This document shows, one piece after another, positions 40,810 to 59,779 of a stretch of DNA of 64,000 nt. The position numbers and the translations under genes are program-made. Origin of the DNA: Salmonirosea aquatica (GTDB lineage Bacteria > Bacteroidota > Bacteroidia > Cytophagales > Spirosomataceae); assembly GCF_009296315.1 (NCBI RefSeq), contig NZ_WHLY01000002.1:6050501-6114500 (forward strand). Reading direction: 5' to 3'. Position 1 is the first letter of the stretch. Each line of letters starts with the position of its first letter. The notes below the pieces were generated by a model. It saw nothing but the letters and a program-made list of their open reading frames with translations, did not search any database and was not told where the DNA came from.

Positions 40810-40824
40810 TAATCCATCTCCATT

Positions 40825-41904
40825 ATGGCACAGATAGTAAATGAAAACCTGCCCGAAGATCAGATTTCACCTAAGGTGGTGATACTAAAAATGGCGTCCG
40901 CCAAAGACGCCATTTTTAGAAACTGGAAGCTAATTGTACTCTTCTCCCTCATCGGCTATGGGATAGGTTATGCACTTGACATATATCTAAAGAAGCCCGA
41001 TCAATTCCAGGCTACCATTCTGTTCAATTTGGGTGCTGGTGGTAGCTCCTCCCCACAGGGATTTGGCGATGTTGCTGGTTTATTGGGTCTTAACAGTACC
41101 CCTGATGCTAACATTTTTACAGGTGAGAACTTTTTCCATTTCGTTGAATCCCGACCAGTTGTGCAAAGGGCCTTGATGAAAGAAGTCGAGGTCAATAATA
41201 AAAAAATGCTTCTTGCCAATTTTTATATTGATTCAAGTGGAATACTGGAACGCGAATGGGAAAACGTACCCAAATATCAGAAATTCCATTTTACCAAAAA
41301 AGACCCAGAAAAATTCACCCCTCAGGAGCAAATGGCCCTGAACGATGTGGTGGATGGCATGAGGATAGCAACGGATGTGTACCAACCTGATCGCAAATCT
41401 TCTTTTATTATGATTCAGGTAGGTATGGAAGACCCCTTGTTGGCCGAGCTTTGGGCTAATACCCTACTGGAAACTGTGGAAGAAGTATACACCGAAAACC
41501 TGACCTCCAAAACCCGTAAAACCCTCACTCTGCTTAAGAACCGGGCTGATTCGCTTTCGAGAATACTGGGAGGGACTGAAAATCGGTTGGCACGTCAGGT
41601 GGACTACAGTTCCATTATTACCGATCCCATGGGAAAAGTCCAGGTCAATAAGCTCCAAAGAAGTTCCGAGTTTGTTCAACAGCTTTATGTTGAGGCCATG
41701 CGAAACGTCGAAGCTATGAAGGTTTCTCTCGTGCGCGAGGCACCCCTTTTTACGATAATCGAACCCGTGAAAAAGCCCATTGACCGCAAAGCCGACGATG
41801 CAAAAAGAGCGCAAATTGGTTTGTTAATTGGCCTGGCGCTTGCTTTTGTATTTGTATATTTTAAGGGTGTTTATTCTACGATCATGGAGGATACCCGCGT
41901 ATAA
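40825..41904 (+). CDS. Wzz-type chain-length determinant protein
   Basis: 359 residues with two membrane helices (about 33-52 and 330-350) flanking a periplasmic helical domain, the standard Wzz/PCP build. No tyrosine-kinase domain is fused. It starts 15 bases after the export protein and likely sets polymer length or links the inner-membrane exporter to the outer-membrane channel. Confidence 0.82.
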   Translation: MAQIVNENLPEDQISPKVVILKMASAKDAIFRNWKLIVLFSLIGYGIGYALDIYLKKPDQFQATILFNLGAGGSSSPQGFGDVAGLLGLNSTPDANIFTGENFFHFVESRPVVQRALMKEVEVNNKKMLLANFYIDSSGILEREWENVPKYQKFHFTKKDPEKFTPQEQMALNDVVDGMRIATDVYQPDRKSSFIMIQVGMEDPLLAELWANTLLETVEEVYTENLTSKTRKTLTLLKNRADSLSRILGGTENRLARQVDYSSIITDPMGKVQVNKLQRSSEFVQQLYVEAMRNVEAMKVSLVREAPLFTIIEPVKKPIDRKADDAKRAQIGLLIGLALAFVFVYFKGVYSTIMEDTRV

Positions 41905-41913
41905 ATATTTTCA

Positions 41914-42747
41914 ATGGCACACAGGATTACAATCAAAGCGGGAGGATCAGAAAAAGATTACTGGCGCGATCTGTGGATGAATCGGCAGTTGCTGTGGATT
42001 TTATCCAAACGCGACATTTCGGTCCGCTACAAACAAACGTTGCTTGGAATAGCGTGGAGCGTAATACGTCCCATGATGACGATGATCATTATGGCTGTCG
42101 TATTTAGCTTGATCGCTAAACTACCGCCTGATCCCGGCATCAAGTACCCCCACATGATTTTGGGTGCGCTCACCATCTGGACTTTTTTTGCCGGTTCTTT
42201 TACGCAGATCAGCAACAGTATTGTTCTGAATTCCAATTTGGTATCGAAGGTCTATTTTCCTAGACTTCTTATGCCTCTCAGTGCGGTATCGGTAGGATTT
42301 ATTGACTTTCTGATCTCCCTGGTTCTCTTTATGGGGCTCAGTGTATACTATGGTCAGCCACCGAGTATCAATATCGTGTTTCTGCCCTTATTCGTAATCC
42401 TTACTTTTCTTTGTTCCTTGGGATTTGGACTATTTTTTGCGGTAGTCAATGTACGTTTTCGGGATATAGGTCAGCTTATTCCGTTCATCGTTCAAATCGG
42501 CATGTACATCTGTCCGATTGCCTACAGTACCCGACTTGTGCTGCAGGATCACCCTACATTATATAAATATTACATTATGAACCCCGTAGTTGGCATTATC
42601 GACGGCTTCAAATGGTGTCTATTGGGTGATAATTCCTACTTTGATCCCCAAAGTCTTTATTCTACATTAATTGTTTCATCAATAGCTTTGTTCCTGTCTG
42701 TTCTGTACTTTCGTAAGAAGGAAAATACATTCGTAGATCATATCTGA
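41914..42747 (+). CDS. wzm: ABC-2 type polysaccharide transporter permease (Wzm-like)
   Basis: 277 residues, six membrane helices, beginning with the cytoplasmic 'DLWMNRQLLWILSKRDISVRYKQTLLGIAWSVIRPM' that marks O-antigen and teichoic-acid exporters (Wzm/TagG/RfbA). Late marks are 'VRFRDIGQLIPFIVQIGMYICPIAYS' and 'YKYYIMNPVVGIIDGFKW'. It moves lipid-linked polysaccharide across the inner membrane together with the ATPase encoded next. Confidence 0.92.
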   Translation: MAHRITIKAGGSEKDYWRDLWMNRQLLWILSKRDISVRYKQTLLGIAWSVIRPMMTMIIMAVVFSLIAKLPPDPGIKYPHMILGALTIWTFFAGSFTQISNSIVLNSNLVSKVYFPRLLMPLSAVSVGFIDFLISLVLFMGLSVYYGQPPSINIVFLPLFVILTFLCSLGFGLFFAVVNVRFRDIGQLIPFIVQIGMYICPIAYSTRLVLQDHPTLYKYYIMNPVVGIIDGFKWCLLGDNSYFDPQSLYSTLIVSSIALFLSVLYFRKKENTFVDHI

Positions 42748-42764
42748 TAGCAGAGTACCTGCCC

Positions 42765-44030
42765 ATGCATGTAATATCAGCCGAAAATATAAGTAAGAAA
42801 TATATAATCAATCACCAGGGCATTCGGAAATCGTCCACACTGCGCGATGTGGTATCCGACACCATGGACGGTTTGTTTTCCCGGAAAAAGAAAGAAAAAT
42901 TCCCTCAGGAAAAAGAAAAGGAGGAATTCTGGGCCTTAAAAGATGTGAGCTTTACCATCGACCAGGGCGATCGCATTGGCATTGTGGGCCATAACGGGGC
43001 TGGCAAATCCACCCTTCTTAAAATCCTGAGCCGTATTACCGATCCTACTACCGGCCAGGTAAGCATCAACGGCCGGGTGGCTAGCCTGCTAGAGGTAGGT
43101 ACCGGTTTTCATCCTGAGTTGACTGGTCGAGAGAATATTTTTCTGAATGGAGCAATTCTGGGTATGGATAAAGGTGAAATCAAGAAATCATTCGATGCCA
43201 TCGTGGATTTCGCCGGAGTGGAGAAATTCCTTGATACACCCGTGAAGCGCTATTCTTCAGGGATGTATGTACGCCTGGGTTTTGCCATCGCCGCTCACCT
43301 CGAGCCTGAAATCATGATCATCGATGAGGTTTTGGCCGTAGGTGACGCTGAGTTCCAGAAGAAGTGCCTGGGCAAGATGCGTGACGTATCGGAAAGCGGA
43401 CGTACCTTGCTTTTTGTCAGTCATAACCTCACGGCGATTCAGGCACTTTGCAACAAATCATTTTATTTCGAAAAGGGACGTTTGATCGATCAGGGTGAAA
43501 CTTCCCACATTGTAACTACCTACCTGAGTCGCGTTTCTCAGAAACAATTGGAACGTTCGTGGGAAAATCCCAACTCAGCCCCAGGAAATGATGAGATCCG
43601 TGTCAAAAGTTTCCGACTTGTCCCCGAATATCTAAATAACCTGACTCACATCGACGTCAGGACCCCTATGCAGGTGCAGTTTGAATTCTGGAATATGGTG
43701 GAGGATGCCCAACTCAACCTGAGTCTTCACTTGTATTCATATACGGGCGAGTGCATTTTTAATGTAGGTACCCCCTCGCAACCCTACGGAAAGGGTATTA
43801 TGGTTGGAACACTCGAAATTCCAGGTCATTTCCTCAATGATGGTTCATACATGATTTCCATCATGGTGGTTAAGGATACAAGTAGCGTCATATACAATAT
43901 GGAGGAGGCCCTTTCTTTCGATATTGAGGACTACCGCGAGAACGTCACATGGTATGGCAAGTGGCCGGGTTATATCCGCCCCCAGTTAAATTTCACCTTG
44001 TGCCAAACCGAATCCGTAGTGAATGATTAA
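42765..44030 (+). CDS. wzt: ABC polysaccharide transporter ATPase with C-terminal glycan-binding domain (Wzt-like)
   Basis: 421 residues. ATPase domain (about 1-250): Walker A GHNGAGKST, signature 'RYSSGMYVRLGFAIAAHL', Walker B 'IMIIDEVLAVGDAEFQKK', His in 'FVSHNLTAI'. The H-loop and the N-terminal insertion of about 40 charged residues are typical of Wzt. A C-terminal beta-rich domain (about 265-415) resembles the Wzt carbohydrate-binding domain that reads the end cap of the chain before export. The 3' end overlaps the aminotransferase gene by eight bases. Confidence 0.93.
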   Translation: MHVISAENISKKYIINHQGIRKSSTLRDVVSDTMDGLFSRKKKEKFPQEKEKEEFWALKDVSFTIDQGDRIGIVGHNGAGKSTLLKILSRITDPTTGQVSINGRVASLLEVGTGFHPELTGRENIFLNGAILGMDKGEIKKSFDAIVDFAGVEKFLDTPVKRYSSGMYVRLGFAIAAHLEPEIMIIDEVLAVGDAEFQKKCLGKMRDVSESGRTLLFVSHNLTAIQALCNKSFYFEKGRLIDQGETSHIVTTYLSRVSQKQLERSWENPNSAPGNDEIRVKSFRLVPEYLNNLTHIDVRTPMQVQFEFWNMVEDAQLNLSLHLYSYTGECIFNVGTPSQPYGKGIMVGTLEIPGHFLNDGSYMISIMVVKDTSSVIYNMEEALSFDIEDYRENVTWYGKWPGYIRPQLNFTLCQTESVVND

Positions 44031-45099
44031 CGTAACAAAAGCATTTCTTCCTGACCGGGAAGAATATATCCGCTATATCCACCAAATATGGGATAATGTC
44101 CAGCTTACCAACAACGGCCCACTTCTACAGACACTAGAAGAACAGTTAAAAGCCTACTTGGGAGTGGATCAGCTGTACTTCTGTGGCAATGGTACCATTG
44201 TTCTACAGATTGCCCTTAAGGCACTGGAAATCAAAAAGGAAGTTATCACAACGCCTTTTTCCTATTGCGCCACTACCAATTCTATTTTGTGGGAGAACTG
44301 TACTCCTGTGTTTGTGGACATTGATCCCGATACCTTCAATATCAATCCTGATCTAATCGAGGCAGCCATTACTCCGGATACGGAAGCCATCATGGCCACT
44401 CACGTATACGGGAATCCCTGCGCGGTGGAAGAAATCGAAAAGATTGCTCGTCAATATTCACTCCGGGTTATATATGATAGCGCCCATGGTTTTGGTGTAA
44501 CGCTCAACGGTCGATCCCTTCTCTCTTACGGTGATTTAAGTACCTGTAGTTTTCATGCTACTAAGGTTTTTCATACCATAGAGGGTGGTGCGATAATATC
44601 CAATCATCCAGAACTGCACGAAAAGTTGCAGCTGTTGCGGGCATTTGGCCATCGGGGTGATGAAGAGTACAAGTTTGCCGGCATTAACGGCAAAAACTCG
44701 GAATTCCATGCTGCTATGGGGCTATGTAATTTACCACAGGTACCCGCCATTATTGCGGCCCGGAAAGAGGTATTCGACGTCTATGATGCAATACTGGACT
44801 GGGAACGCCTGCGGAAGCCCTATATCAACCCCACCATTGAATACAACTACGCCTACTACCCCGTAGTATTTGAGTCGGAAGCTACCATGCGCCGGGTTCA
44901 GGCGGCTTTACTGCAAAATGAAATTGCTCCCCGCCGTTATTTTTATCCTTCCCTTAACACCCTACCTTTTATGCCTCGCACTTATTCCTGCCCGGTTTCA
45001 GAAGATATTGCTCTGCGCGTGTTGAGTCTGCCCCTTTATGTAGGCCTCGAATCCAAAGAAATAGAACGTATCAGCCAAATCATTAATAAAAACCTATGA
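44023..45099 (+). CDS. DegT/DnrJ/EryC1-family sugar aminotransferase
   Basis: 358 residues. The PLP-binding Lys lies in 'FHATKVFHTIEGGAII' (about 183-198), with the Asp of 'VIYDSAHGFG' about 30 residues earlier and the 'TTPFSYCATTNSILW' segment. Such enzymes add an amino group to a nucleotide-linked keto-sugar. A 3- or 4-amino-6-deoxy sugar is likely, but the exact product cannot be told. It is the only clear sugar-nucleotide enzyme in the cluster, so other precursors must be made elsewhere. Confidence 0.88.
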   Translation: MINVTKAFLPDREEYIRYIHQIWDNVQLTNNGPLLQTLEEQLKAYLGVDQLYFCGNGTIVLQIALKALEIKKEVITTPFSYCATTNSILWENCTPVFVDIDPDTFNINPDLIEAAITPDTEAIMATHVYGNPCAVEEIEKIARQYSLRVIYDSAHGFGVTLNGRSLLSYGDLSTCSFHATKVFHTIEGGAIISNHPELHEKLQLLRAFGHRGDEEYKFAGINGKNSEFHAAMGLCNLPQVPAIIAARKEVFDVYDAILDWERLRKPYINPTIEYNYAYYPVVFESEATMRRVQAALLQNEIAPRRYFYPSLNTLPFMPRTYSCPVSEDIALRVLSLPLYVGLESKEIERISQIINKNL

Positions 45100-45109
45100 C
45101 CTTTACGTC

Positions 45110-47140
45110 ATGGAGCTAATGTTTGGATTCTTCTTTTTTGCATTCATTGCGGCGGTGGGCCTGGTCGCGAAGGTCATTAGCCAGCCCTCTCTGGTCGAGT
45201 GGATTCTGTGTACGTTCGTCCTTTTTGTCGGTAGCGTCATACCCACGGGCTTTATTCTTTCAGCACTGGATTTGACCGCCAGCGCACTGGCCTGGATAGT
45301 GGGTACTTTCCTGATACTCGGGGCTCATTTCTTGATATGGCGCCGTTTGGTTCCTTCTGCTTCCCCCTTCTCAGTGCGGAAGTTACTCCAAAACAGAGCA
45401 GGTACCTTTCGTGAATGGTTTCTGGAACTTTCCCCTTATCTCAAAGTTCTTTTCAGCTTGATGATGGGTACCCTGCTGATCATCGGTATCACCAATCTGC
45501 TGTTGGTACTATTCACGGTACCCAATGAATGGGATAGCATGACGGGACATCTGAACCGGGCCATACGATACATTCAGCGAGGTACTATGGAGCATTTCGG
45601 GGGTACCAACTGGAATATGGACACCTACCCCAAGAGTGTTACGGCCATCCAGATTTACAGCTACCTGATTTTCGGGAAAACCGAGAATGCTTTCAAACTT
45701 ATTCATCATAGCGCCTACTGGATCACTCTGGTTGCCGTTTTTGGAATTTCGCAACGGATCGGCCGCAATTTGTCGGCAAGTTTTTTCTGCGCCCTGGCCT
45801 TTAGCCTGTTTCTGGATTTCCTAATGCAGGCCATCACCACCGAAACAGACATCGTTCTGACTGCCTATTTGAGTTGTCTGCTCTATTTCCTGTATACTTA
45901 CCATGCCACCCGGCTCAATAAATACCTATATCTTTCGGGGCTTGTCTTTGGCATTGTACTTGGTCATAAGGTGACTTTCGTCCTGCTTTTGCCTTCGGTT
46001 TTCGTCATCATGCTGTACACAGTTTTCATTGCTTCCTCTTTCCGAATCACTCTGGAACGGATGCTTCGACTGGGTATCGCTATCATCCTGGCGATTCTGA
46101 TTTACACCCTACCCACCGGTTATGTGAAAAATATTCAGGTCTTCGGGCATCCCATTGGTCCTCCGACAGCGTTACGACATCAGTCGGTCGAAAGGGCGGG
46201 TGGGTTAAGGAATCTGGCCGAACAGGGTAGCCGCAATCTGGTCCGGTATAGCTACGATTTTTTTAATCTGGATGGCCTGAGAAACGCCCAATGGGGCTAT
46301 GATTTGAATCAATGGATTCGTAAGCCCCTCGTGTTCATGGAAGATAAGCTTCACATGAGGCTTGACGAAGAAACCGATTTCTCCATAGTACCTTTTACTT
46401 TTCAGGGGCGCTTTGAATCATACAATGCCAATCCGTATTGGGGTATTTTCGGATTTGCGATGGTATTACCGCTGGTTCTCCTTACCCTGTTGCGCATTTT
46501 CCGATCCCGTCCGCATTGGTTTCTTGCGGCAGCCATTAGCCTCCATTTTATTGCAATCGCTTATTCGGCTCCGTATGATACTTTCAAGGGCCGGTATTTT
46601 ATCGAAACGGGTCTACTGGGCTCCCTGTTCTTACTCATGCTGTTTTCCAACCACCGGCTATCTATTCTCAAACCCCGCCGCTGGGTCTGGAAAATGTATG
46701 TGGGAATGGTCGTGCTGCTGGGTTGTGTATCAGCCATCATGTCGGTTTATCTGAACATCCGTGCCCTACCCTTGCCGGCCTACGGATACGAATCGGCCTT
46801 CACCGCCGATCGGATTAAATTTCAAACTTTTGCCCGCCCTGACACTTACCCAGCCTACCAACGGTTCGATTCTATCGTACCCCAAGACGCTACAGTGGCA
46901 CTAGGGACCATCAATGACGATTTCGAGTACCCCCTGTATGGGAAGAACCTTAGCCGGCGGCTTATTTCCATAAATCCGTTCGAGAAGGGGTTGCAACCTA
47001 TACCTCCCGAGGCCGATTATCTATTTTTTGATCGCAGCGTACTGAATCCCCAGCCCGGCGACCTGCGCCTTGGTACCGATACTACCATGCAAGGCCTTAT
47101 GGTAAAAGGGGAAGATTACTACCTGCGAAAACTAAAATAA
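45110..47140 (+). CDS. Large multi-helix membrane protein, GT-C glycosyltransferase-like
   Basis: 676 residues with about 11-12 membrane helices in the first 570 and a periplasmic C-terminal part. An early loop reads 'NEWDSMTGHLNRAIRYIQRG', where an Asp after the first helices resembles the metal-binding acid of GT-C transferases, which use polyprenyl-phosphate sugars. No named family is recognised. The start at 45110 is 11 bases after the aminotransferase. A similar build is seen in the gene at 54.7-56.4 kb. Confidence 0.6.
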   Translation: MELMFGFFFFAFIAAVGLVAKVISQPSLVEWILCTFVLFVGSVIPTGFILSALDLTASALAWIVGTFLILGAHFLIWRRLVPSASPFSVRKLLQNRAGTFREWFLELSPYLKVLFSLMMGTLLIIGITNLLLVLFTVPNEWDSMTGHLNRAIRYIQRGTMEHFGGTNWNMDTYPKSVTAIQIYSYLIFGKTENAFKLIHHSAYWITLVAVFGISQRIGRNLSASFFCALAFSLFLDFLMQAITTETDIVLTAYLSCLLYFLYTYHATRLNKYLYLSGLVFGIVLGHKVTFVLLLPSVFVIMLYTVFIASSFRITLERMLRLGIAIILAILIYTLPTGYVKNIQVFGHPIGPPTALRHQSVERAGGLRNLAEQGSRNLVRYSYDFFNLDGLRNAQWGYDLNQWIRKPLVFMEDKLHMRLDEETDFSIVPFTFQGRFESYNANPYWGIFGFAMVLPLVLLTLLRIFRSRPHWFLAAAISLHFIAIAYSAPYDTFKGRYFIETGLLGSLFLLMLFSNHRLSILKPRRWVWKMYVGMVVLLGCVSAIMSVYLNIRALPLPAYGYESAFTADRIKFQTFARPDTYPAYQRFDSIVPQDATVALGTINDDFEYPLYGKNLSRRLISINPFEKGLQPIPPEADYLFFDRSVLNPQPGDLRLGTDTTMQGLMVKGEDYYLRKLK

Positions 47141-47153
47141 CCTTCTTCACGAG

Positions 47154-47852
47154 ATGACTGTTGCGATCATGCAGCCTTATTTTCTACCCTACATCGGCTA
47201 TTTTCAATTGCTGAATACGGTGGACAAATTCGTATTGTACGACGATGTGAATTTTATCAATCGGGGTTGGGTGAACCGTAATAGTATTTTGCTTGGTGGA
47301 AAACCACATTTGTTCACTGTACCCCTGGACAACGCCAGTCAGAATAAACTAATCCATGAAGTAAAGATGACGGGCGAGGCCTCCTGGCGGAAAAAGCTTA
47401 TCAAAACCGTACAGCAGGCCTACCAGAAAGCGCCCTACTTCCCGACCGTTTTCCCCATCTTTGAAGAAATACTACATCTTGAAGCCACGGATATTGCTGA
47501 CCTGGTTTATCGGTCGTTGCTAATTCTGAAGGGGTACATGGGCATCGAAACCGAACTCGTGAGATCGTCTCGCATCTATGAAAACTCGTCGCTTAAAGGA
47601 CAGGCGCGCATTCTGGACATTTGTAATAAAGAGGGTGCAACCCAGTATATCAATCCCATTGGAGGACAGGAGTTATACGGTCGAGCGCATTTTGAAGCAC
47701 AGGGGATCCAACTGAATTTTATTAAAAGCAATCCTCACCCCTACCCGCAATTTAAAAATGCTTTCGTACCTTGGCTGTCCATCCTGGACGTGTTGATGTT
47801 CAATGACATGACCAACACTCAGGAGCTTTTACTTGACTTTGAACTCGTTTGA
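47154..47852 (+). CDS. WbqC-family protein
   Basis: 232 residues. The N-terminal 'VAIMQPYFLPYIGYFQLLNTVDKFVLYDDVNFINRGWVNRN' is the hallmark of WbqC. These proteins lie in O-antigen and capsule clusters. Some have been proposed to act in transfer onto amino-sugars, but the activity is not well established. It is 13 bases after the membrane protein gene. Confidence 0.88.
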   Translation: MTVAIMQPYFLPYIGYFQLLNTVDKFVLYDDVNFINRGWVNRNSILLGGKPHLFTVPLDNASQNKLIHEVKMTGEASWRKKLIKTVQQAYQKAPYFPTVFPIFEEILHLEATDIADLVYRSLLILKGYMGIETELVRSSRIYENSSLKGQARILDICNKEGATQYINPIGGQELYGRAHFEAQGIQLNFIKSNPHPYPQFKNAFVPWLSILDVLMFNDMTNTQELLLDFELV

Positions 47853-47854
47853 TT

Positions 47855-48514
47855 ATGGCAAAAGTGGTACTTTTTGGAGTTTTAGATACGGCAGAATTAG
47901 CTCATTTTTATCTGGAACATGATTCGGAGCATGAGGTCGTGGCTTTTACCGTAAACCGGGAATATCTGAAAGAAGAGTCGTTCCGCGGTTTACCCCTGGT
48001 GGCCTTCGAAGATGTGGAAACTCTGTTTCCTCCCCAGGAATATGCTTTTTTTGCCCCACTGACGGCTCGTAATATGAACCGAAACCGTGAGAAAGTGTAT
48101 CAGGAAGCCAAAGCCAAAGGGTATTCATTCATTTCATATATCAGTTCAAAAGCCACGCTCTTGAATCGGGGATTGATCGGGGAGAACTGTTTCATTTTGG
48201 AAGACAATACTATTCAGCCCTTCACCACCATCGGCAACAATGTCGTACTCTGGAGTGGCAACCACATCGGTCACCACGGACAGATTCACGATCATGTTTT
48301 CTTTACCTCCCACGTGGTACTGTCAGGCCACTGCCAGGTAGAGTCGTATTCGTTTTTCGGTGTCAACGCCACCATCCGCGATTACACCCGCATCGCCCAG
48401 GGTACCCTGGTGGGAATGGCTTCGGCGATTACCAAAGAAACCGAGGAATGGGGTATCTACATCGGAAACCCGGCCAAGAAGGTTCCAGGCAAGAAAAGTT
48501 TTGAAGCTTATTGA
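47855..48514 (+). CDS. NeuD-like sugar O/N-acetyltransferase (left-handed beta helix)
   Basis: About 219 residues from the ATG at 47855. An N-terminal nucleotide-fold part ('KVVLFGVLDTAELAHFYLE') is followed by hexapeptide repeats (about 105-200, 'FTTIGNNVVLWSGNHIGHHGQI', with His-rich catalytic loop). This is the NeuD/PglD build, which acetylates amino-sugars such as the product of the DegT aminotransferase three genes upstream. It follows wbqC with a two-base gap. Confidence 0.85.
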   Translation: MAKVVLFGVLDTAELAHFYLEHDSEHEVVAFTVNREYLKEESFRGLPLVAFEDVETLFPPQEYAFFAPLTARNMNRNREKVYQEAKAKGYSFISYISSKATLLNRGLIGENCFILEDNTIQPFTTIGNNVVLWSGNHIGHHGQIHDHVFFTSHVVLSGHCQVESYSFFGVNATIRDYTRIAQGTLVGMASAITKETEEWGIYIGNPAKKVPGKKSFEAY

Positions 48515-48558
48515 ACATACCTACCTTTGTCGGGAGGTTTCTTAGCAAAAAACGATTG

Positions 48559-49785
48559 ATGCACTCTAAGCGGGTTTTATTTATTTCCCACGACGCCAAC
48601 CGGGCGGGCAGCCAGCTGTTGCTACTCCAACTCATCAAGCTGTTAAAGGCTCAGGGCATTTCCTCCCATTTGCTGCTCTGCGATGGGGGCGATCTGGTGG
48701 AGGACTTCAAAGCGGTTACCTCCTGTACCCTCCTCGAATCCCCTCCATCATCTCCGTTGCTGAGTAAAATCAAAAAAGGGGTTGAGAAGATACCTTTTCT
48801 TCGCCTTCCCTCGGCTGGCACCAATGCAAAGGTACACCTCCGTCTTGAAACCGAATTGTCGCAGCTGAATATTGGGCTGGTATTTGTCAATTCAGTGGCC
48901 AATGCCGCTTTTTACCAGCAGAACCTCGTTTTCCTGCATGCGCTTCCGGTAGTCCTTTTTGCCCACGAACTCGAAATGTCCGTGGCTACCTACACGGCAC
49001 CCGAGTCCCTTCGGTTCCTGCTCCAAAAGTGCGATCACCTGATTGCCGTCTCGAAGGCCGTGGCTGATTTCTACATACGTGACTATGGGTATCCTACGTC
49101 CCGCGTGAGTACATTTACGTTAATCAATTCAGGGGAAATACTGAATAACCTTGCTTCCCTGGATCCACACTACACTCACCCTGCCCTTCCTACCGAGGCC
49201 GATGCTATTATAATCGGGGGCTGCGGGAATGCCGAATGGCGCAAAGGAAACGATATTTTTAATCTCATTGCCCGCCAGGTGATCGAAACCATGCCGACGC
49301 GTCCCATCTACTTTGTGTGGGTAGGTGCCGGTCCTATGCATGCCTTCTACGAACAAATAAAGTTCGACATCGAACGTTTCGGCCTTTCCCGGCAAATCAT
49401 TCTAATCCCCCCTACGCCGGAAGCGTTGAATATTATGAATCGGTTCGACCTTTTTTTATTGAGTTCGCGGGAAGACCCCTACCCGTTGGTTGTTCTGGAA
49501 GCAGCTCTACTTCAGAAACCGATCATCTGTTTTGAGAAAGCGGGTGGTGCGCCTGAACTGGTCGAGCAGGATGCCGGTGAGGTCGTGGGGTATCTTGATG
49601 TTGCTGCCGCCTCCCAAGCTATCATTACCCTGATCAATGATCCGGTGTTACGTAAAAAAAAGGGCAAAGCTGCTCACCACAAGGTACTTGAGCGTCATAA
49701 CACCGAACAAAGTATTCAAAAAATCCTGACGATTATCCATGATCTCATGCCTGTTCCGGTTTCCGAAAACGTACCTCTGGCATGA
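48559..49785 (+). CDS. Family 4 glycosyltransferase
   Basis: About 408 residues from the ATG at 48559 (MHSKRVLFISHDANRAGSQ). The GT-B fold shows in 'LFISHDANRAGSQLLLLQLIK' and the nucleotide-binding end 'LFLLSSREDPYPLVVLEAALLQKPIICFEKAGG', a variant of the EX7E motif. It is a cytoplasmic transferase of unknown donor. A TTG start at 48511 is possible but adds 16 non-conserved residues. The stop overlaps the next ATG. Confidence 0.85.
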   Translation: MHSKRVLFISHDANRAGSQLLLLQLIKLLKAQGISSHLLLCDGGDLVEDFKAVTSCTLLESPPSSPLLSKIKKGVEKIPFLRLPSAGTNAKVHLRLETELSQLNIGLVFVNSVANAAFYQQNLVFLHALPVVLFAHELEMSVATYTAPESLRFLLQKCDHLIAVSKAVADFYIRDYGYPTSRVSTFTLINSGEILNNLASLDPHYTHPALPTEADAIIIGGCGNAEWRKGNDIFNLIARQVIETMPTRPIYFVWVGAGPMHAFYEQIKFDIERFGLSRQIILIPPTPEALNIMNRFDLFLLSSREDPYPLVVLEAALLQKPIICFEKAGGAPELVEQDAGEVVGYLDVAAASQAIITLINDPVLRKKKGKAAHHKVLERHNTEQSIQKILTIIHDLMPVPVSENVPLA

Positions 49786-50765
49786 CCATCGCTTTCACAA
49801 TCTGTTCCATCAATTACCTGGCGCAAGCCCGTACTTTGGGCGAGTCTCTGCGCAGGACTAATCCAGATATCACCTATTTCGTGGGGTTGGTGGATCGGTT
49901 GGAAAATATAACGTTTGCACCTGGTTACGAGCCCGATTGCACGCTGGTAGAAGTTCATACCATCGGCATCGAGGCTTTCGATGATTTGTGCGAGCGATAC
50001 AATATCACCGAACTCAACACCGCGGTCAAGCCTTTCTATTTTCAGTATTTTTATGAAACATATCCCGGGGCGGACAAAATCTTGTACCTGGATCCCGACA
50101 TCATCGTTTTCCAGCCTCTGACCGCTCTGCTTGCTACCCTCGATACCCACGAGGCGGTTCTGACTCCCCACCTTACCGTACCCATTGCCGATACGAAAAA
50201 ACCCAGTGAGCTGGATCATCTCAACACGGGCTTGTATAACCTGGGTTTCTGTGGGTTCCGAAGAAGCGAATCTACCCGGAAGTTCCTGGCCTGGTGGGCC
50301 GAAAAACTACGCTACGAATGCCTCATAGCCCTGTGTGACGGTTTGTTCGTGGATCAGAACTGGATGAATTTCCTACCTCTTTTTGTGGAAAATACTTGTA
50401 TTGAAAGCAATCCTGGCTACAATGCGGCTTATTGGAATCTACATGAACGCACGTTCACAAAGCAGAAGGGTACCTTCATGGTAAATGAGGGGTATCCGCT
50501 CCAGTTTTTCCATTTCAGTGGTTATGATCCCGCCCGACCGGACGTAGTTTCCAAGTACCAGAACCGTTATGACTTCCACCAACGACCCGACTTGACCGAG
50601 CTTTTCGAACTGTACCGTGAACGGCTAATGGCCCACGGCAATTCCTACTACCGAAATTTTACCTGCGTGTACATCAAGCCCGAAAAAATTTATAAGTATA
50701 GCCGAATCCGTAAAGGACTGACAACCCCCCTCCGTACTTTGATGCGGCTCATCGATTCCCACTAA
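49782..50765 (+). CDS. GT8-like glycosyltransferase with intact DxD motif
   Basis: 327 residues. 'MTIAFTICSINYLAQARTLGESLRRTNPD' at the N-terminus and a DxD-type metal site, 'KILYLDPDIIVF' (Asp104, Asp106), point to a GT-A fold close to family 8. 'LNTGLYNLGFCGFRRSESTRKFLAWW' is the acceptor region. It is the first of three consecutive related genes: it overlaps the upstream gene by four bases and the downstream gene by one, so all are coupled. Confidence 0.82.
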   Translation: MTIAFTICSINYLAQARTLGESLRRTNPDITYFVGLVDRLENITFAPGYEPDCTLVEVHTIGIEAFDDLCERYNITELNTAVKPFYFQYFYETYPGADKILYLDPDIIVFQPLTALLATLDTHEAVLTPHLTVPIADTKKPSELDHLNTGLYNLGFCGFRRSESTRKFLAWWAEKLRYECLIALCDGLFVDQNWMNFLPLFVENTCIESNPGYNAAYWNLHERTFTKQKGTFMVNEGYPLQFFHFSGYDPARPDVVSKYQNRYDFHQRPDLTELFELYRERLMAHGNSYYRNFTCVYIKPEKIYKYSRIRKGLTTPLRTLMRLIDSH

Positions 50766-51514
50766 TGACCGAATTAGTCACCGTCCTTGTCCCGCTTTTC
50801 GGATTGCCCCTTACTCCTCTCGAAACCTATTCGCTTCAAACATGTCAGAGGCACTTGGGTGACTTTCCGATTACCTTTCTAAAAAGTGATTCCCTCACAC
50901 TGTCGGATGAAGTCCGGTCCATTTGTCCCACGGCCGATTCTGTTTCTTTCGACCCGAGGTACCTTGCCAACCGCACCGGGTACACGAAGCTGTTGCTTGG
51001 CGAAAATTTGTACGAACAGTTTAGCTGGAGCAGGTACCTTTTGATTCTGGAATTGAACACTGTGGTTACCAAAAATGAACTGGCCTACTGGTGTCGCCAG
51101 GGATATGATTTAATTCAGGCGTTCCCTACATTCGATGAGAAGGTTTCTCCGGTTCGGTCGATGGTACGGCGATTTAGCCCTACGGCTCATCTTGCTCCAC
51201 AATCCTACGAAAGGCAAACTTTTGAACGGAGCGCGGGGATATCTTTACGGCGGGTAAAATCATTTCAGAAGCTGGTGAGGCGAAAAAAACGTTCTATGAA
51301 TCGTTTTCTGACGGATTACCCGGATCCGCAGAATGATTCGTTATTTTGGGAATATTTTGTCAATCGGTGGCGCCCTGAACTCATAACGCCCAATGCGCTG
51401 GCCCGCCGTCATTTTGCCCAAAATCAGGCCTCATTCAATAGGGTACCTGCGCCAAATCTAATACCTTTCAGTATCACTGACTTCGATGATTTCCCCCTTT
51501 GGGATCGTTACTAA
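50765..51514 (+). CDS. DUF5672-like glycosyltransferase-related protein
   Basis: 249 residues. The central 'TKLLLGENLYEQFSWSRYLLILELNTVV' and 'ELAYWCRQGYDLIQAFP' match the DUF5672 pattern, where the usual '-QLDA-' acid is Asn here (Asn98). The C-terminus 'NDSLFWEYFVNRW' and 'DFDDFPLW' also fit. DUF5672 proteins are found in surface-glycan clusters and probably are GT-A enzymes. With the acid lost it may be inactive or act with its neighbours. Confidence 0.7.
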   Translation: MTELVTVLVPLFGLPLTPLETYSLQTCQRHLGDFPITFLKSDSLTLSDEVRSICPTADSVSFDPRYLANRTGYTKLLLGENLYEQFSWSRYLLILELNTVVTKNELAYWCRQGYDLIQAFPTFDEKVSPVRSMVRRFSPTAHLAPQSYERQTFERSAGISLRRVKSFQKLVRRKKRSMNRFLTDYPDPQNDSLFWEYFVNRWRPELITPNALARRHFAQNQASFNRVPAPNLIPFSITDFDDFPLWDRY

Positions 51515-51517
51515 ACC

Positions 51518-52489
51518 ATGAAAATTGTCTTTACCGTTTGCAATCGACACCAACTCCGCCAAGCCCTGACTCTGGGCGAATCGTTACTTCTTCATAATCC
51601 CGACTATTTATTTGTAATCGGCTGGATGGATGAAGCTCCGTTAGTTAATTTACCTGAATGGGTGCGCGTGATTCGATTCCATGAGCTAGAGGTACCTGAT
51701 GCGAAAGCCATGTGTCTTCGGTACTACGATTTTGAATTAAACGCTGCCTGCAAACCTTTTTTTGCCCGGAAAATACTCGAGATTTATCCCCGTTGTACCC
51801 GATTGATGTACCTGGCTCCCTCGATCTGGGTGCTGGATTCGCTGGAATCGGTTCTTAATTCAAAGTACTTCCTGCAAATCACGCCACACCGTCTGCATCC
51901 AATAGTCCCCGGCAGCCACCTGGATGACAAGGCTATTTTGAACATCGGAATGTACCATGCCGGAAGCTGGGTTCTACATCCAGATGGTCAGGAAAATAAA
52001 TTGCTGGATTGGTGGTGCGAACGTACAATGGATCGTGCCTATTTCAACCTGTGCGAGGGCATGTGCATGGATCAGTTATGGATGAATTACCTACCCCTGC
52101 TGTACAGTAACGTGCAGGCGGTGCGTCGCCCTAGTTGGCATTTTGGCCTTCATGCCCAAGTTGATCAAAACCTTGAGCAGGATAAGGAAGGTACCTTTTG
52201 GGTAAAGCAGCATTCGCTGATCTCCATAGATTTTGCAGGGATCGAAGTCTACCATCCTATCTGGACTGATCATGCAAACCTGATTTCTAGGAAGGCGCCT
52301 TGGCAAGAAATCTGCCGTCTCTACCAAGAAAGGGTCATTGCGCAAAAGGTACATTCATTCGAATCGGGAAGCAATCCGTACGGACGGGCATCGATCATCA
52401 AACCTTTTCGGAAGCAAAGGAAACAAGTGATTGGCCTGCTGGAAACCCTGGTAAACCGAATTGAAACGTACGATCTTACCCATAATTGA
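51518..52489 (+). CDS. GT8-like glycosyltransferase paralogue with altered DxD motif
   Basis: 323 residues, clearly related over its length to the protein at 49782 (same N-terminus '..FTxCxRxxLxQAxTLGESL', same 'LNIGMYHAGSW', 'LCEGMCMDQLWMNYLPLLYSN'). At the place of the DPD site it reads 'MYLAPSIWVL' (Ala100-Pro-Ser102), so both metal-binding acids are gone. Either it is a non-catalytic partner or it uses other residues. It lies three bases after the DUF5672 gene. Confidence 0.8.
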   Translation: MKIVFTVCNRHQLRQALTLGESLLLHNPDYLFVIGWMDEAPLVNLPEWVRVIRFHELEVPDAKAMCLRYYDFELNAACKPFFARKILEIYPRCTRLMYLAPSIWVLDSLESVLNSKYFLQITPHRLHPIVPGSHLDDKAILNIGMYHAGSWVLHPDGQENKLLDWWCERTMDRAYFNLCEGMCMDQLWMNYLPLLYSNVQAVRRPSWHFGLHAQVDQNLEQDKEGTFWVKQHSLISIDFAGIEVYHPIWTDHANLISRKAPWQEICRLYQERVIAQKVHSFESGSNPYGRASIIKPFRKQRKQVIGLLETLVNRIETYDLTHN

Positions 52490-52499
52490 GCTATTGCCC

Positions 52500-53387
52500 A
52501 TGAAATCACTGGAAACGTACGCCTCCGAACTACAGTCCTTCTTACAGAAACCTGCTGGTTTGGTTAAGCAGGACAGTACCTACCCGAAACTATCGATAAT
52601 AACACCTTCTTTTAATCAGGGAAAATACCTTGAACGGACCATCCTTAGTGTACTGAACCAGCAGTACCCCAATCTGGAGTATATCATCATCGACGGCGGT
52701 TCGACGGATGAAAGTCTGGACGTAATCAAGAAATATGAAAAATACCTGGCCTATTGGGTGAGTGAACCCGATAAAGGCCAGGTAGATGCCCTGAATAAGG
52801 GTTTTATTAAAGCCACTGGCGACTGGATCGGGTTTCAGAATTCTGATGATGTATATTTCCCCGGTACATTTGATCGTTTTGGCATTGAGGCACGTCGGAG
52901 CGCGAACGTAGATTTGTTATATGGAGACCTATTTATGATAACCCCCGACGACCGGGTCACGGAACTACTTAAGACCTTACCCTATAGCCTGACTTGCCAA
53001 CTGATTGAAGGGATGCAGATTCATAACCAGTCTTTGTTTTTCAAAAAAAGCCTGCTTGATCAGTATGGCTCATTTGACCCAGAGTATCGATTTGCCTTTG
53101 ATTATGAATTCATAACCCGCTTTACTACCCAATCGGGCGTGCGGGCTAAACGAATAAACGGATTGGCCGGTGCCCTACGGATTCATGACGAAGCCAAATC
53201 TTCAACCATCGCGCAGATAGGTCGACAGGAACACGAGCAAATACAAATCGCCTTCGGAAAATACAATACTTCCTTTTTGCCTGAGAAAATGCAGTACCTT
53301 TACTGCCGACTACGAAAATTGGCGTATTTGTTCGGTCAAAACGATTGGAATTACATCGCCCACAGAAAGAGTTTACGAAAGACATGA
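52500..53387 (+). CDS. Family 2 glycosyltransferase
   Basis: About 295 residues from the ATG at 52500. GT2 marks: 'LSIITPSFNQGKYLERTILSVLNQQYPNLEYIIIDGGSTDES' and the acid pair in 'WIGFQNSDDVYFPG'. A late 'HNQSLFFKKSLLDQYGSFDPEYRFAFDYEFI' is typical. Predicted to be cytoplasmic or membrane-associated. Overlaps the next gene by four bases (ATGA). Confidence 0.9.
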   Translation: MKSLETYASELQSFLQKPAGLVKQDSTYPKLSIITPSFNQGKYLERTILSVLNQQYPNLEYIIIDGGSTDESLDVIKKYEKYLAYWVSEPDKGQVDALNKGFIKATGDWIGFQNSDDVYFPGTFDRFGIEARRSANVDLLYGDLFMITPDDRVTELLKTLPYSLTCQLIEGMQIHNQSLFFKKSLLDQYGSFDPEYRFAFDYEFITRFTTQSGVRAKRINGLAGALRIHDEAKSSTIAQIGRQEHEQIQIAFGKYNTSFLPEKMQYLYCRLRKLAYLFGQNDWNYIAHRKSLRKT

Positions 53388-54709
53388 GTACCAAATCCCT
53401 AATTAGGCTATTCCACTTCCTGCGTTACTCGGCGGGTATCGCTATGATGTTTAATGGATTTCCTCTGGTATTTTTTATCCGGGATACCCTGCACATCGGA
53501 CCTGCCTCTAATGTATTTACCGCCTATTTTTTCGGATTGGCGCTGATTCTCATGTTCCCAACGCATCTTTTTACCCGCCTCTACAAACCTAATTTCACGC
53601 TACTTAAGTACGCGGTGCTTTTCCTGGCAATTGCACTTTACCATTTCTTTGTTTTCAACAACTCGGGCTTCGACTGGTTCGTTGAAATCGGGAATTTCGC
53701 GTTTACTTTTGCTTTCCTCTTTTTACTCATTCATGTACCCAATGAAGTAAAAGACACGCTGGTACCTATCCTATTTCTGTTTGCTTTTTTCTCCAACCTC
53801 ACGCTGATTTACTCCCTGCTTACCGATCCGAACTGGAAAATAGGGATGCGGGCGGCGGTGACGTTTGAGAATGCCGGGGCTCAGGAAGGAGGAAATCCTC
53901 ATATTGCCGCCCGGAATGGCCTGGTCTGTATGCTGACCGGTGCTGTTTTAGCTTGGCGGTATAACCATCTACTAATCAAGCTTTTCCTGATTGTATCCAT
54001 CATTTTTAGTCTTGCCGTAATAATCCTGGCTCAGGTAAAATCGAGCCTGCTGGCCATCGGGCTAATGGTCTGCTTTTTTCTATTTTTCAATGCCCGATTT
54101 TCCAATATAGCAAAAATCGGTCGGAGTATTTTCCGGGTAAGGAATATTGTTATTCTGGCGCTCCTGATCGTGGGACTTAATGTTTTTCTAAGCCGATATA
54201 GTGATCTTTACAGTCTACTGTACGGTTATTGGTTCGGTTTTCAAACCAAGCTCATGGATGTGATTTTCACGGCTTCCGGCGTAAAGGTTTCCAGTACTGC
54301 TGTTGTGGATGCCTCAGCCATGGGACGAGTAACAAGCATCACATACTTTATGAATTCCTTTGGTAATCCGGCTCTGCTTATCATTGGGGCCGGCTATAAG
54401 AACGTTTTTATGGATGTTCCCATTCTTGAGTCAATCATTAACCACGGCATTTTTGGCTTTATTTTCTTCTTCGGCTTCAACTACCACCTATTCATGTGCA
54501 CTGTCAGGGAACTACGCAAACCTACCAATCCGCTGACCCTATTCCTTGCCTACTTCTTCGTTTACTTTCTGGTTCTGCTCATTTCAAATGGCCGTCCTTA
54601 TGACGTATCCTTCTGGTTTCCTTATGCCGTGATGATCCGCTTTCTGGGCATCAAATACCTGGATGCTGAAAAAGAAGTTAGGCCTGAACCCATGGCCCAA
54701 CTGGCTTAA
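53384..54709 (+). CDS. O-antigen polymerase/ligase-like membrane protein
   Basis: About 441 residues with about 11-12 membrane helices and a large periplasmic loop (about 285-325), the layout of Wzy polymerases and WaaL ligases. A short soluble N-terminus precedes the helices. Its role (joining repeat units or attaching the chain to a carrier) cannot be decided from sequence. It starts four bases before the end of the GT2 gene, and a GGTACC lies two bases past its stop. Confidence 0.75.
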   Translation: MSTKSLIRLFHFLRYSAGIAMMFNGFPLVFFIRDTLHIGPASNVFTAYFFGLALILMFPTHLFTRLYKPNFTLLKYAVLFLAIALYHFFVFNNSGFDWFVEIGNFAFTFAFLFLLIHVPNEVKDTLVPILFLFAFFSNLTLIYSLLTDPNWKIGMRAAVTFENAGAQEGGNPHIAARNGLVCMLTGAVLAWRYNHLLIKLFLIVSIIFSLAVIILAQVKSSLLAIGLMVCFFLFFNARFSNIAKIGRSIFRVRNIVILALLIVGLNVFLSRYSDLYSLLYGYWFGFQTKLMDVIFTASGVKVSSTAVVDASAMGRVTSITYFMNSFGNPALLIIGAGYKNVFMDVPILESIINHGIFGFIFFFGFNYHLFMCTVRELRKPTNPLTLFLAYFFVYFLVLLISNGRPYDVSFWFPYAVMIRFLGIKYLDAEKEVRPEPMAQLA

Positions 54710-54729: not shown

Positions 54730-56435
54730 TTATTTTTCGGATTTGTAGCAATAAATGGGCTCGTGCAGATTATTTGCAAAGGTCTTGATGGGTTGCCGAT
54801 CATCCAGGCGAATTTCGGTAACCAGGTAGTCGTACAATCCGGCTCGGAAGTCGGCTAAAGCATCCTCCGTTTTTACGCTGTGGCTTGCAAGCACTACATC
54901 GTCCAGATACACATCATAGTTGAATTTCTTTGTGGCCGTTCGGTCATTATATTTGATCAATAACTGGTATTGAATTTCGTTGAGGCGCTCATCTTCGAAT
55001 GCAAACGACCGGGTCACCAGCGGTACCCCATCCGCGGTGGTAGGACCGCTCTTGTTTCCCAACAGAAAATTGAGCTTTCGAATCATAAGCTTCGGGTCCT
55101 GATTAATAGCCAAAGCCTTTTCTAGATTCTCTTTCGTCTTGGGAAGGTAGAATTGCAAAGCAGGGTGCACCAACAGGCGAGAATTTGCCGGAAGAGTTTG
55201 GATCCAATAGTAAGCGGACTCGATCGTGGAGGGCGTATGGCTACGTCTCTGGAATTGTACGTACTCATACAAATTGGAAATTATCACCACAAAGGACAAT
55301 CCCGCTACCACCCAGTCACGACGGTTACCTGCCTTTTCGGCCAGAAATGCTACGCCCAGGCCTACTGTAAAAAGTGTAATAATACCGGCAGGTAAAACGT
55401 GGGTGTCATAAATCTTAGCCGATCGCAAGACCAGGAAAAGAAAAAAGATCCAGTTGCCGATCAGGATATAATAAAACCCTGACCTCTGCCTAAGCAATAC
55501 CCATCCCCCAGAACACTCAGAAAAAGGACCAGATAATTAACCGGATTTTGAAGGTACAGACCAATAAACTCATAATTGAACAGTGTGGCCATGGGTTTGT
55601 CGTTCATCTTGGCCATGATTCCCCCAATAAACGATTTAAGAACCACGAGCGGGTCTGTAAGTATGAATGGGCAACATACGACGAAGACCGCCAGTGTGAG
55701 CAGAATAAATCGAAAGATCATCCTCCAGTGGTTTCTCTCGGACCGATAGAATACCCCTCCAAGCAACATGGGTACCACAAATACAAAAAGAAGCCGCTCG
55801 GCCAGCACTATCCCGAAGAGCACCGCAAGCCAATAAATCTGCTGGTTGCTCAGTCGATCGGTAAAAAGCAACCTGGCCAAAATATAAAAAAACAGGCTGC
55901 CCGACAGGGCCTCTGGCCGAAGTACGGGTGCATTGAACCAAACAACGTAGGAAGTTATGATAATAAAAGTCAGGGCAGGCCTACTTAACTCGGTTAGTAA
56001 AGTGTGGTTCTGTCGGTAAAGAAATCGTATCAGTATCACGAGTACGATGCCTACTTCCAGCAGTTGTACGGTACGGCCGACCACCAGGAAGCTTTCACGG
56101 TTTGTAAAATATTGGTACGCTTGCAAATCAAACTGTTCGAAGACATCCAATAATCCGTGGATTTGACCGCGGTTCGTCACGATGCTTCCAGCTACCGCCA
56201 GTCCAAACATCAAAAAGAAAGTTAACAGGCTGGGAGTAGCAGGCCAGTCGAGGCAGCGGGGTGTATTTCCGTACCACAGGAAAATGCCCGAATCGGCAAT
56301 AAAATTTTCATCGACAGTGAAGTAGCCAAAAAAGGGGGGAGTTAAAATACTGACGTAAAAGGTATAAACCCAAATCAGTGTGAGTACCAAAAAGGCGCTG
56401 TTGGGCGACGATTTGGCACTTTTCAAAACAGTCAT
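54730..56435 (-). CDS. Multi-helix membrane protein, possible GT-C/dolichyl-phosphate-mannose-type transferase (frameshifted in this sequence)
   Basis: Two - strand frames join into about 568 residues when one G is added at the run 55505-55509 (+ strand C). About 10 membrane helices fill the first 390 residues, with 'FFGYFTVDENFIADSGIFLWYGNTPR' in an early loop carrying an acid pair and 'NAPVLRPEALSGSLFFYIL' later, a pattern seen in GT39-like transferases. The last 190 residues are soluble. It is the only - strand gene inside the + strand cluster, which suggests a separate insertion. Confidence 0.65.
55505..55509 (-). other. Frameshift point in the 54.7-56.4 kb membrane protein gene
   Basis: Five C on the + strand (five G on the coding strand). 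A sixth restores 'VLGGWVLLRQRSGFYYILIGNW', a continuous membrane helix, where the current frame runs to a stop after 'GFIIS'. Confidence 0.8.
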
Positions 56436-58631: not shown

Positions 58632-59779
58632 ATGCGAATCCTGAATATATGTGCGTACACCTGGGCGATCGGCGGCCCGGCCCGGATTATCTACGATCAT
58701 ACGACCGAAGCCCTCAAGCGTGGGCATAGCGTTACTATCCTGAGCCCGATGACGCCCGGAGAAAAAATGTATGAGGTACCCCGGGTGCCATTCTGATTCC
58801 CTGCCGCCGCACTACCCCCATCAGTTATATATACCGTGAGTTTTCGCTTGATCTGTACTCCTACCTGAAAAAGCATATTCAGGAGTATGACATTATCCAT
58901 ATTCACGGCATCTGGCATTTTGGAAGCCTTGCTCCTTTTATGATTGCCAACCAGGTACCCAAGGTGATCACCATCCACGGCTTACTGGACCGATGGGCCA
59001 TCCGGCACCACCAATGGAAAAAGCAAATTGTCAGCTTCCTGTACCAGAAAAAAGTATTAGCCAAGGCCGACTTGGTGCAGGTGAATAATCTGGATGAGCA
59101 GGAGGACGTTGCCCGATACCTGGGATTTGAGCCTAAAAATCTGGTCATAATTCCCAATGGCATGCGGATGGAAGAATTTGCTCACCTCCCGAAGAAAGGT
59201 TTTTTTCGTAAGGAGCACGGTATTACGGAAGAAATCAACATGGTGCTTTTTATGGGGCGCCTGAATATCAAAAAAGGGCTTGACCTGCTCCTGCCTGCTT
59301 TTGCAGAATACTACTCACAATATCCTGACGCCGTACTTGTGTTGGCGGGGCCAGACGATGGCTACCAGGAAGAAACAGAGGCTTTCATTGAGGCACACGA
59401 ATTGAAGTCCCGTATTCTTTTGGTAGGTCTGCTCACGGATGAAGTAAAAAAATCCGCCCTGGCTGATGCGGATCTTTTCGTACTTCCTTCCTACTCGGAA
59501 GGATTTTCAATCGCGGTGCTTGAGGCGATGGCCGCGGGGGTACCTACGTTGGTCTCTAGCCGGGTTGGTTTTGGTGATTATATTGAAAGGTACGCGGCCG
59601 CATATCTGGCTGGGTTGAACACGAAAGATGTGCTTGCCGGGCTGGTTTCGATGTTGCAGGATGAAATCTTGCGTAAGCGCACTAAACAAAACGCCTTTCG
59701 CATGTTGAAGGAAAATTTCGAAATTCACGAAGTTGCCCGGCAAATGCTTGAGGCTTACGGTTCGGTACTAAAAACCTAA
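58632..59779 (+). CDS. Family 4 glycosyltransferase (frameshifted in this sequence)
   Basis: The ATG at 58632 opens 'MRILNICAYTWAIGGPARIIYDHTTEAL' but stops at 58796. Adding one C at 58779-58782 continues through 'PGAILIPCRRTTPISYIYREF' and 'DIIHIHGIWHFGSLAPFMI' into the frame seen from 58940 to 59779, giving about 382 residues. Donor-binding marks are 'LFMGRLNIKKGLDLLLPAF' and 'PSYSEGFSIAVLEAMAAGVPTLVS' (EX7E). Without repair the N-terminal acceptor domain would be lost. Confidence 0.88.
58779..58782 (+). other. Frameshift point in the second GT4 gene (one C missing)
   Basis: The sequence is TA-CCCC-GGG, inside a GGTACC site. A fifth C restores the frame as 'VPPGAILIP'. Confidence 0.85.

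Follow-up and report, generated by a model that had tools for sequence, protein, structure and literature searches.

Why would a bacterium keep three glycosyltransferase-like genes in a row if only the first of their products has an intact catalytic site? This question is raised by a head-to-tail trio in Salmonirosea aquatica, which we studied within a window of 64,000 nucleotides of contig NZ_WHLY01000002.1 (the window is the whole stretch analysed, and all coordinates are window positions). A first-pass annotation had read the trio, here called gene A, the DUF5672 gene and gene B, as possibly encoding one catalytic subunit and two inactive partners. Our comparison with relatives supports the presence of two degenerate transferase-like proteins beside an intact one, since the arrangement recurs in eight genera and the loss of sites is common to both neighbours of A; from this pattern we infer that the two may be inactive and may form a complex with A. 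We give an even chance to the explanation that A is the catalytic transferase, with the DUF5672 protein and B as pseudo-glycosyltransferase partners comparable to CHPF and COSMC. The features of the trio are as follows.

49782-50765, + strand: gene A, GT8-like glycosyltransferase, 327 amino acids (aa); intact D104-P-D106, D191-Q192, H244, N153 and N214
50091-50099, + strand: DPD metal-site codons of A (residues 104-106), placed from the translation
50765-51514, + strand: DUF5672 gene, predicted GT-A fold, 249 aa; N98 in place of Asp, D191-S192 in place of the family E-D, no GCHAW
51518-52489, + strand: gene B, paralogue of A with predicted GT-A fold, 323 aa; A100-P-S102 in place of DPD, D238 in place of the C-terminal His, D185-Q186 kept

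Motifs and predicted folds of the three proteins

The three open reading frames (ORFs) lie where, and on the strand on which, the annotation had placed them, and the close spacing it described is borne out by a TAATG overlap between A and the DUF5672 gene and a gap of 3 bases between the latter and B. Protein A falls into GT8, marginally, with 24.6 bits against PF01501 (cut-off 24.3). It weakly matches the GT8 protein 3tzt by PDB sequence search (E 0.0062), and a profile search of solved structures with A returned only this protein (E 0.074). Its DPD, DQ, H244, N153 and N214 are invariant in 132/132 distinct A sequences, a residue pattern that we take to be like that of LgtC. Window A also has a strong amphipathic C-terminal helix, equalled by 1/1000 shuffles; as a feature common to A and B this helix was rejected, since 234/1000 shuffles equal it in window B.

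A and B are paralogues, as had been proposed, with 29% identity (E 3.1e-36) and a hhalign profile-profile probability of 100 (E 2.8e-46). Protein B matched no Pfam family at E <= 1, PF01501 included, and its profile found nothing better than E 1.8 among the sequences of solved structures. AlphaFold2 models of B and of the DUF5672 protein were made from alignments in which the window protein was combined with the proteins of named loci in relatives (46 and 43 rows). The model of B (predicted local distance difference test, pLDDT, 86.3) aligns with the UGGT catalytic domain at a VIA Z of 17.8 (root mean square deviation, rmsd, 3.5 over 238 residues) and with the best glycogenin and LgtC chains at VIA Z 16.7-17.3 (rmsd 3.6-3.9, 222-230 residues). 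B is thus predicted to have a GT-A fold and to be homologous to the GT8-like A. At the place aligned with D104-P-D106 of A it reads A100-P-S102, in agreement with the annotation.

The middle protein belongs to DUF5672, scoring 84.3 bits against PF18922 (cut-off 24.4). Where its relatives outside the block genera invariably have QLD, ED and GCHAW, the window protein has ELN, DS and no CHAW. The Asn that had been noted at the expected acid is N98. Its model (pLDDT 88.1) aligns with the UGGT catalytic domain at VIA Z 14.1 (rmsd 3.7, 220 residues) and with LARGE1, LgtC and GT6 at VIA Z 12.1-13.6, which predicts a GT-A fold also for this protein and would place a family of unknown function in that fold. 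Single-protein structure prediction, which the annotation had proposed as a check, thus gave GT-A folds for both degenerate proteins. The profile search of solved-structure sequences gave as its best match a terpene synthase (E 0.064), and its matches were judged to be chance. The profile alignment of A with DUF5672 is weak (probability 3.7, E 0.011), and its register, which pairs the DUF5672 Asp with D106 of A, is a hint only; the family ED presumably corresponds to the DQ of A or to the xED base of GT-A enzymes. The same genome carries a second DUF5672 gene elsewhere (locus L237, 1477-2226), which is motif-intact (HQLDAY, NGG, NED) and lies downstream of an ORF that by eye resembles a GT2 transferase.

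The loss of sites is therefore real, but broader than had been noted: B also lacks the C-terminal His, and the DUF5672 protein lacks the second ED acid and the CHAW motif.

Conservation of the block in relatives

A contiguous A-DUF5672-B block is present in 44/45 named loci, the exception being Emticicia, which has only A and a second A-like gene. Among named relatives, the block was found in Dyadobacter, Persicitalea, Arundinibacter, Telluribacter and Rhabdobacter, and in one Cytophagaceae metagenome genome; Dyadobacter belongs to the Spirosomataceae. Among the eight block genera, the block was contiguous in 56/56 searched genomes (the 44 named loci, the window and 11 read by coordinates), and a pattern recurring across eight genera is more than chance. 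In 222 family genomes, B had a match in 205, A in 206 and DUF5672 in 188, counts which include paralogues and in which A and B find each other. In a sample of the order, the B profile matched in 33/194 genomes, 17 of them from the same family, so that the B family is patchy beyond Spirosomataceae.

Conservation of the substitutions in other genomes, another check that had been suggested, is high within the block genera. Of 125 distinct B-like sequences, 52 come from block genera and 73 from others. The former read APT (25), SPT (17), APS (6) or SPS (4) at the DPD place, i.e. [AS]P[ST] in 52/52, and have D (47), E (3) or N (2) at the place of the C-terminal His; the DxD and C-terminal His metal ligands are found in 0/52. 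For DUF5672, the comparison is between 53 distinct non-block sequences and 47 distinct block sequences. Outside, the D, the ED and the CHAW His are each present in 53/53, whereas inside the acid is N in 44 and D, H and S in one each, and the second ED acid and the CHAW His each occur in 0/47. Since the substitutions recur across relatives, a lineage-private mutation was rejected.

Relatives with restored acids and the same gene order had been named as evidence that would speak against inactive partners. Inside the block genera they are nearly absent: the B ligands are restored in 0/52, and the DUF5672 acid in 1/47, a protein (locus L106) whose ED pair is nonetheless D-L and which has no CHAW His. 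Outside, relatives of this kind do occur, as the DUF5672 residues are intact in 53/53, including 42 loci in which A, DUF5672 and B stand in the same order with other genes interleaved, and 8/73 B-like sequences have acids at both places. In non-block loci the gene after A is GT9 by Pfam in 3/3 tested and the gene after DUF5672 is GT2 (1 tested); in some genera A and DUF5672 are still adjacent (loci L112, L113 and L126), and several loci lack DUF5672.

The 73 non-block B sequences comprise 3 with DxD and 5 with ExE, and the His is kept in 9, which are those 8 and one with HPE. In most of them the motif is D-P-N/T/S and the His is replaced by Asn, and the first DPD position is A or S in 4/73, E in 7 and H in 1. 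Moreover, 53/73 have K or R at the place of S246 of A, two residues after the lost His (loci L112-L131 and L177-L235), which is a possible replacement for the metal. Second A-like genes with both DxD acids and the His were seen in L110 (11311-12303), L131 (5853-6887) and L230 (7965-8966); these may resemble the form from which B arose.

Block B and block DUF5672 are each monophyletic with support 1.0, and the block A members group in the tree, but with support 0.23. We read the non-block relatives with intact acids as the older state. On the simplest reading, the interleaved genes would have been lost toward the block genera, and both neighbours of A would have lost their sites. The erosion of B appears from the alignments to have had two stages, and it is the second alone that is peculiar to the block genera.

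All three genes are under purifying selection and are not decaying: the median ratio of non-synonymous to synonymous substitution rates (dN/dS; pairwise Nei-Gojobori, named loci and window) is 0.047 for A (46 pairs), 0.114 for DUF5672 (46) and 0.117 for B (30), compared with 0.037-0.086 for five neighbour genes, so that DUF5672 and B are less constrained. A pseudogene or frameshift artefact was rejected for the trio, as the frames are open and dN/dS is well below 1. As a column control, alignment columns of charged, amide or His residues whose invariance outside the block genera reaches 98% or more were checked in block members. For A, 24/25 were kept, for DUF5672 0/12, with 8/12 nearly absent, and for B, compared with the 42 outside loci with the ordered trio, 5/10 were kept and 3/10 nearly absent.

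Inactive partners or altered enzymes

According to the explanation with one catalytic and two non-catalytic proteins, sugar transfer by the block would be carried out by A in a metal-dependent manner. B and the DUF5672 protein would both have arisen from glycosyltransferases through loss of residues for donor or metal binding and catalysis, with loss of activity as the presumed consequence. They would have been retained as scaffold, chaperone or acceptor-positioning subunits that serve A, to which they may bind, or the transferase assembly of the locus, and translational coupling would make the proteins together. Direct support comes from the gene order, the motif loss, its conservation and purifying selection, alongside the predicted GT-A folds of B and the DUF5672 protein. 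B is a homologue of A without its catalytic motifs, as expected of such a partner, whereas the DUF5672 protein shares with A the predicted fold only, the sequence link being weak. A degenerate pair kept with a working enzyme suggests help to that enzyme or a new mode of action.

Several observations weigh against inactive partners. In block B a different set of residues (R10, H147, H208, D238, W249) is nearly invariant, and the DQ is retained in 52/52. In 44/47 block DUF5672 proteins an acid (E or D) has been gained two positions ahead of the Asn, and in 47/47 the first position of the ED pair still carries D or E; an alternative metal site in the DUF5672 protein or B is possible. These conserved pocket residues would fit a changed activity as well. 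Furthermore, the column contrast is much weaker for B than for DUF5672, and in most non-block B sequences the second Asp and the His are likewise missing, so that part of the loss in B predates the block. No fusion of any two of A, DUF5672 and B was found among the scanned ORFs. The coupling also extends beyond the trio, as the genes from 38308 to 54709 are arranged head to tail; it spans most of the locus and is thus no particular sign of a complex of these three proteins.

The main rival, which we consider possible although unlikely, is that B, the DUF5672 protein or both are active metal-independent transferases, each adding its own sugar, like BoGT6a of Bacteroides ovatus. In the part of the published account used here, BoGT6a has NXN together with Lys231/Arg243 and proven activity, and shows that loss of DXD can equal metal independence (PMC3961637). 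It is likewise a GT-A protein without DXD and comes from the same phylum. The retained DQ of block B, the Asn at the DUF5672 acid, itself conserved (44/47), and the basic residue of non-block B as a possible substitute all agree with this rival, and BoGT6a chains come first in Foldseek E-value order for both models. However, in VIA order BoGT6a stands lower for DUF5672 (Z 12.1), and none of its chains is among the best 50 matches listed for B. The NXN motif is found in neither protein, B having A-P-S ([AS]P[ST] in the block genera) and DUF5672 E-L-N, and DUF5672 has lost several separate family-invariant motifs beyond the acid. In addition, the place of K258 of A is occupied in block B by D (39), N (11) or E (2) and never by Lys, and that of S246 by A (51) or T (1), with no basic residue (n=52 each), so that a simple exchange of metal for a basic contact is not evident there. 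The non-block B proteins with K or R may serve as another case in which GT8-like enzymes work without metal.

An improbable explanation is that the pockets were rebuilt, as in B the positions of N153, N214, H244 and Y259 of A have become H147, H208, D238 and H252, which may form a new site for a metal or ligand and serve to bind glycans, to control length or in some other chemistry. Among the 52 block B sequences, His is found at the N153 place in 52, at the N214 place in 50 and at the Y259 place in 47, and Asp at the H244 place in 47; this His and Asp enrichment may, however, be incidental. That the DUF5672 gene and B are decaying leftovers of a simplified polysaccharide pathway is very improbable: in some non-block relatives additional GT9 and GT2 genes lie among those of the trio, so that the glycan may differ, and the median dN/dS of DUF5672 and B exceeds that of A by a factor of about 2.4-2.5, but at 0.11-0.12 it reflects purifying selection that largely refutes decay, and the block is present in all 56 searched genomes.

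The surrounding locus and comparison with known systems

The trio lies within a larger gene cluster, which probably directs the synthesis of a surface or secreted polysaccharide and includes several GT4/GT2 genes.

38308-54709, + strand: surrounding locus, from Pfam and synteny in relatives
48511-49785, + strand: GT4-family glycosyltransferase upstream of A (PF13692/PF00534), with a 4-base overlap with A
52500-53387, + strand: GT2-family glycosyltransferase downstream of B (PF00535, 88.3 bits for 52497-53384); start taken as the ATG at 52500, where the list of ORFs gives a TTG start at 52461 instead

The locus encodes an SLBB export protein, ABC-2 and ABC_tran proteins, a DegT aminotransferase, a PMT-like protein, WbqC, a NeuD-like acetyltransferase (154.0 bits with the NeuD/PglB profile, below the cut-off of 160.8), GT4, A, DUF5672, B and GT2, as well as an ORF (53345-54709) without a Pfam match. 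Beyond it, two overlapping ORFs at 54730-56435 (- strand) correspond to one gene of 572-575 aa in relatives L092 and L096, with a frame shift near 55506-55524 that represents a frameshift or sequencing error. A GT4-family gene at 58632-59779 (+ strand) has its first 51 codons in a different frame from the remainder, with the break near 58784, and its counterpart in L092 is a single open frame of 384 aa.

In bacteria, GtfA-GtfB and EryCIII-EryCII are examples of transferases that need a homologous non-catalytic partner. These are GT-B proteins, whereas the proteins of the block are predicted to be GT-A. B resembles the GT8 enzymes LgtC and glycogenin in its predicted fold but lacks their metal ligands. 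Among GT-A systems, the portion of the literature consulted describes CHPF of the human chondroitin polymerase CHSY3-CHPF as lacking DxD and most donor contacts and having a structural role (PMC12748766). The likeness is that of an active GT-A transferase with a homologous partner without DxD; the difference is that CHSY3-CHPF consists of eukaryotic two-domain GT31/GT7 proteins, while here three separate bacterial proteins would form a putative complex. Similarly, COSMC, a GT31 homologue of T-synthase, is described in the available part of its source as having lost both DxD and xED and acting as scaffold and chaperone (PMC7185993), but it is one partner, whereas the block has two unlike degenerate neighbours of putative function. 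In the GAUT1:GAUT7 pectin synthase a GT8 transferase is anchored by a GT8 homologue, and in the excerpts used GAUT7 carries the family DxD and HxxGxxKPW motifs, which B does not (PMC7533613, PMC11820401).

Judged by titles and listings, we found no description of the A-DUF5672-B block in the open-licence literature on DUF5672, Dyadobacter exopolysaccharide clusters, capsule-locus pseudo-glycosyltransferases and DXD loss or inactive GT8 proteins; for DUF5672 the literature listed concerns type VII secretion. We tentatively propose that two adjoining transferases from separate GT-A families each lost the catalytic site along one lineage, and that both were kept, beside a third and fully intact transferase, as obligatory pseudo-glycosyltransferase subunits within a synthase of three proteins. 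CHPF and COSMC, the pseudo-glycosyltransferase partners described in the cited papers, are eukaryotic, and the bacterial cases are given as general background. The block provides a natural series within one bacterial family, with DUF5672 intact and B half-degenerate outside the block genera, both degenerate inside and A constant throughout. Moreover, since cultured Dyadobacter species carry the block, the retention and role of dead subunits in polysaccharide assembly are experimentally accessible.

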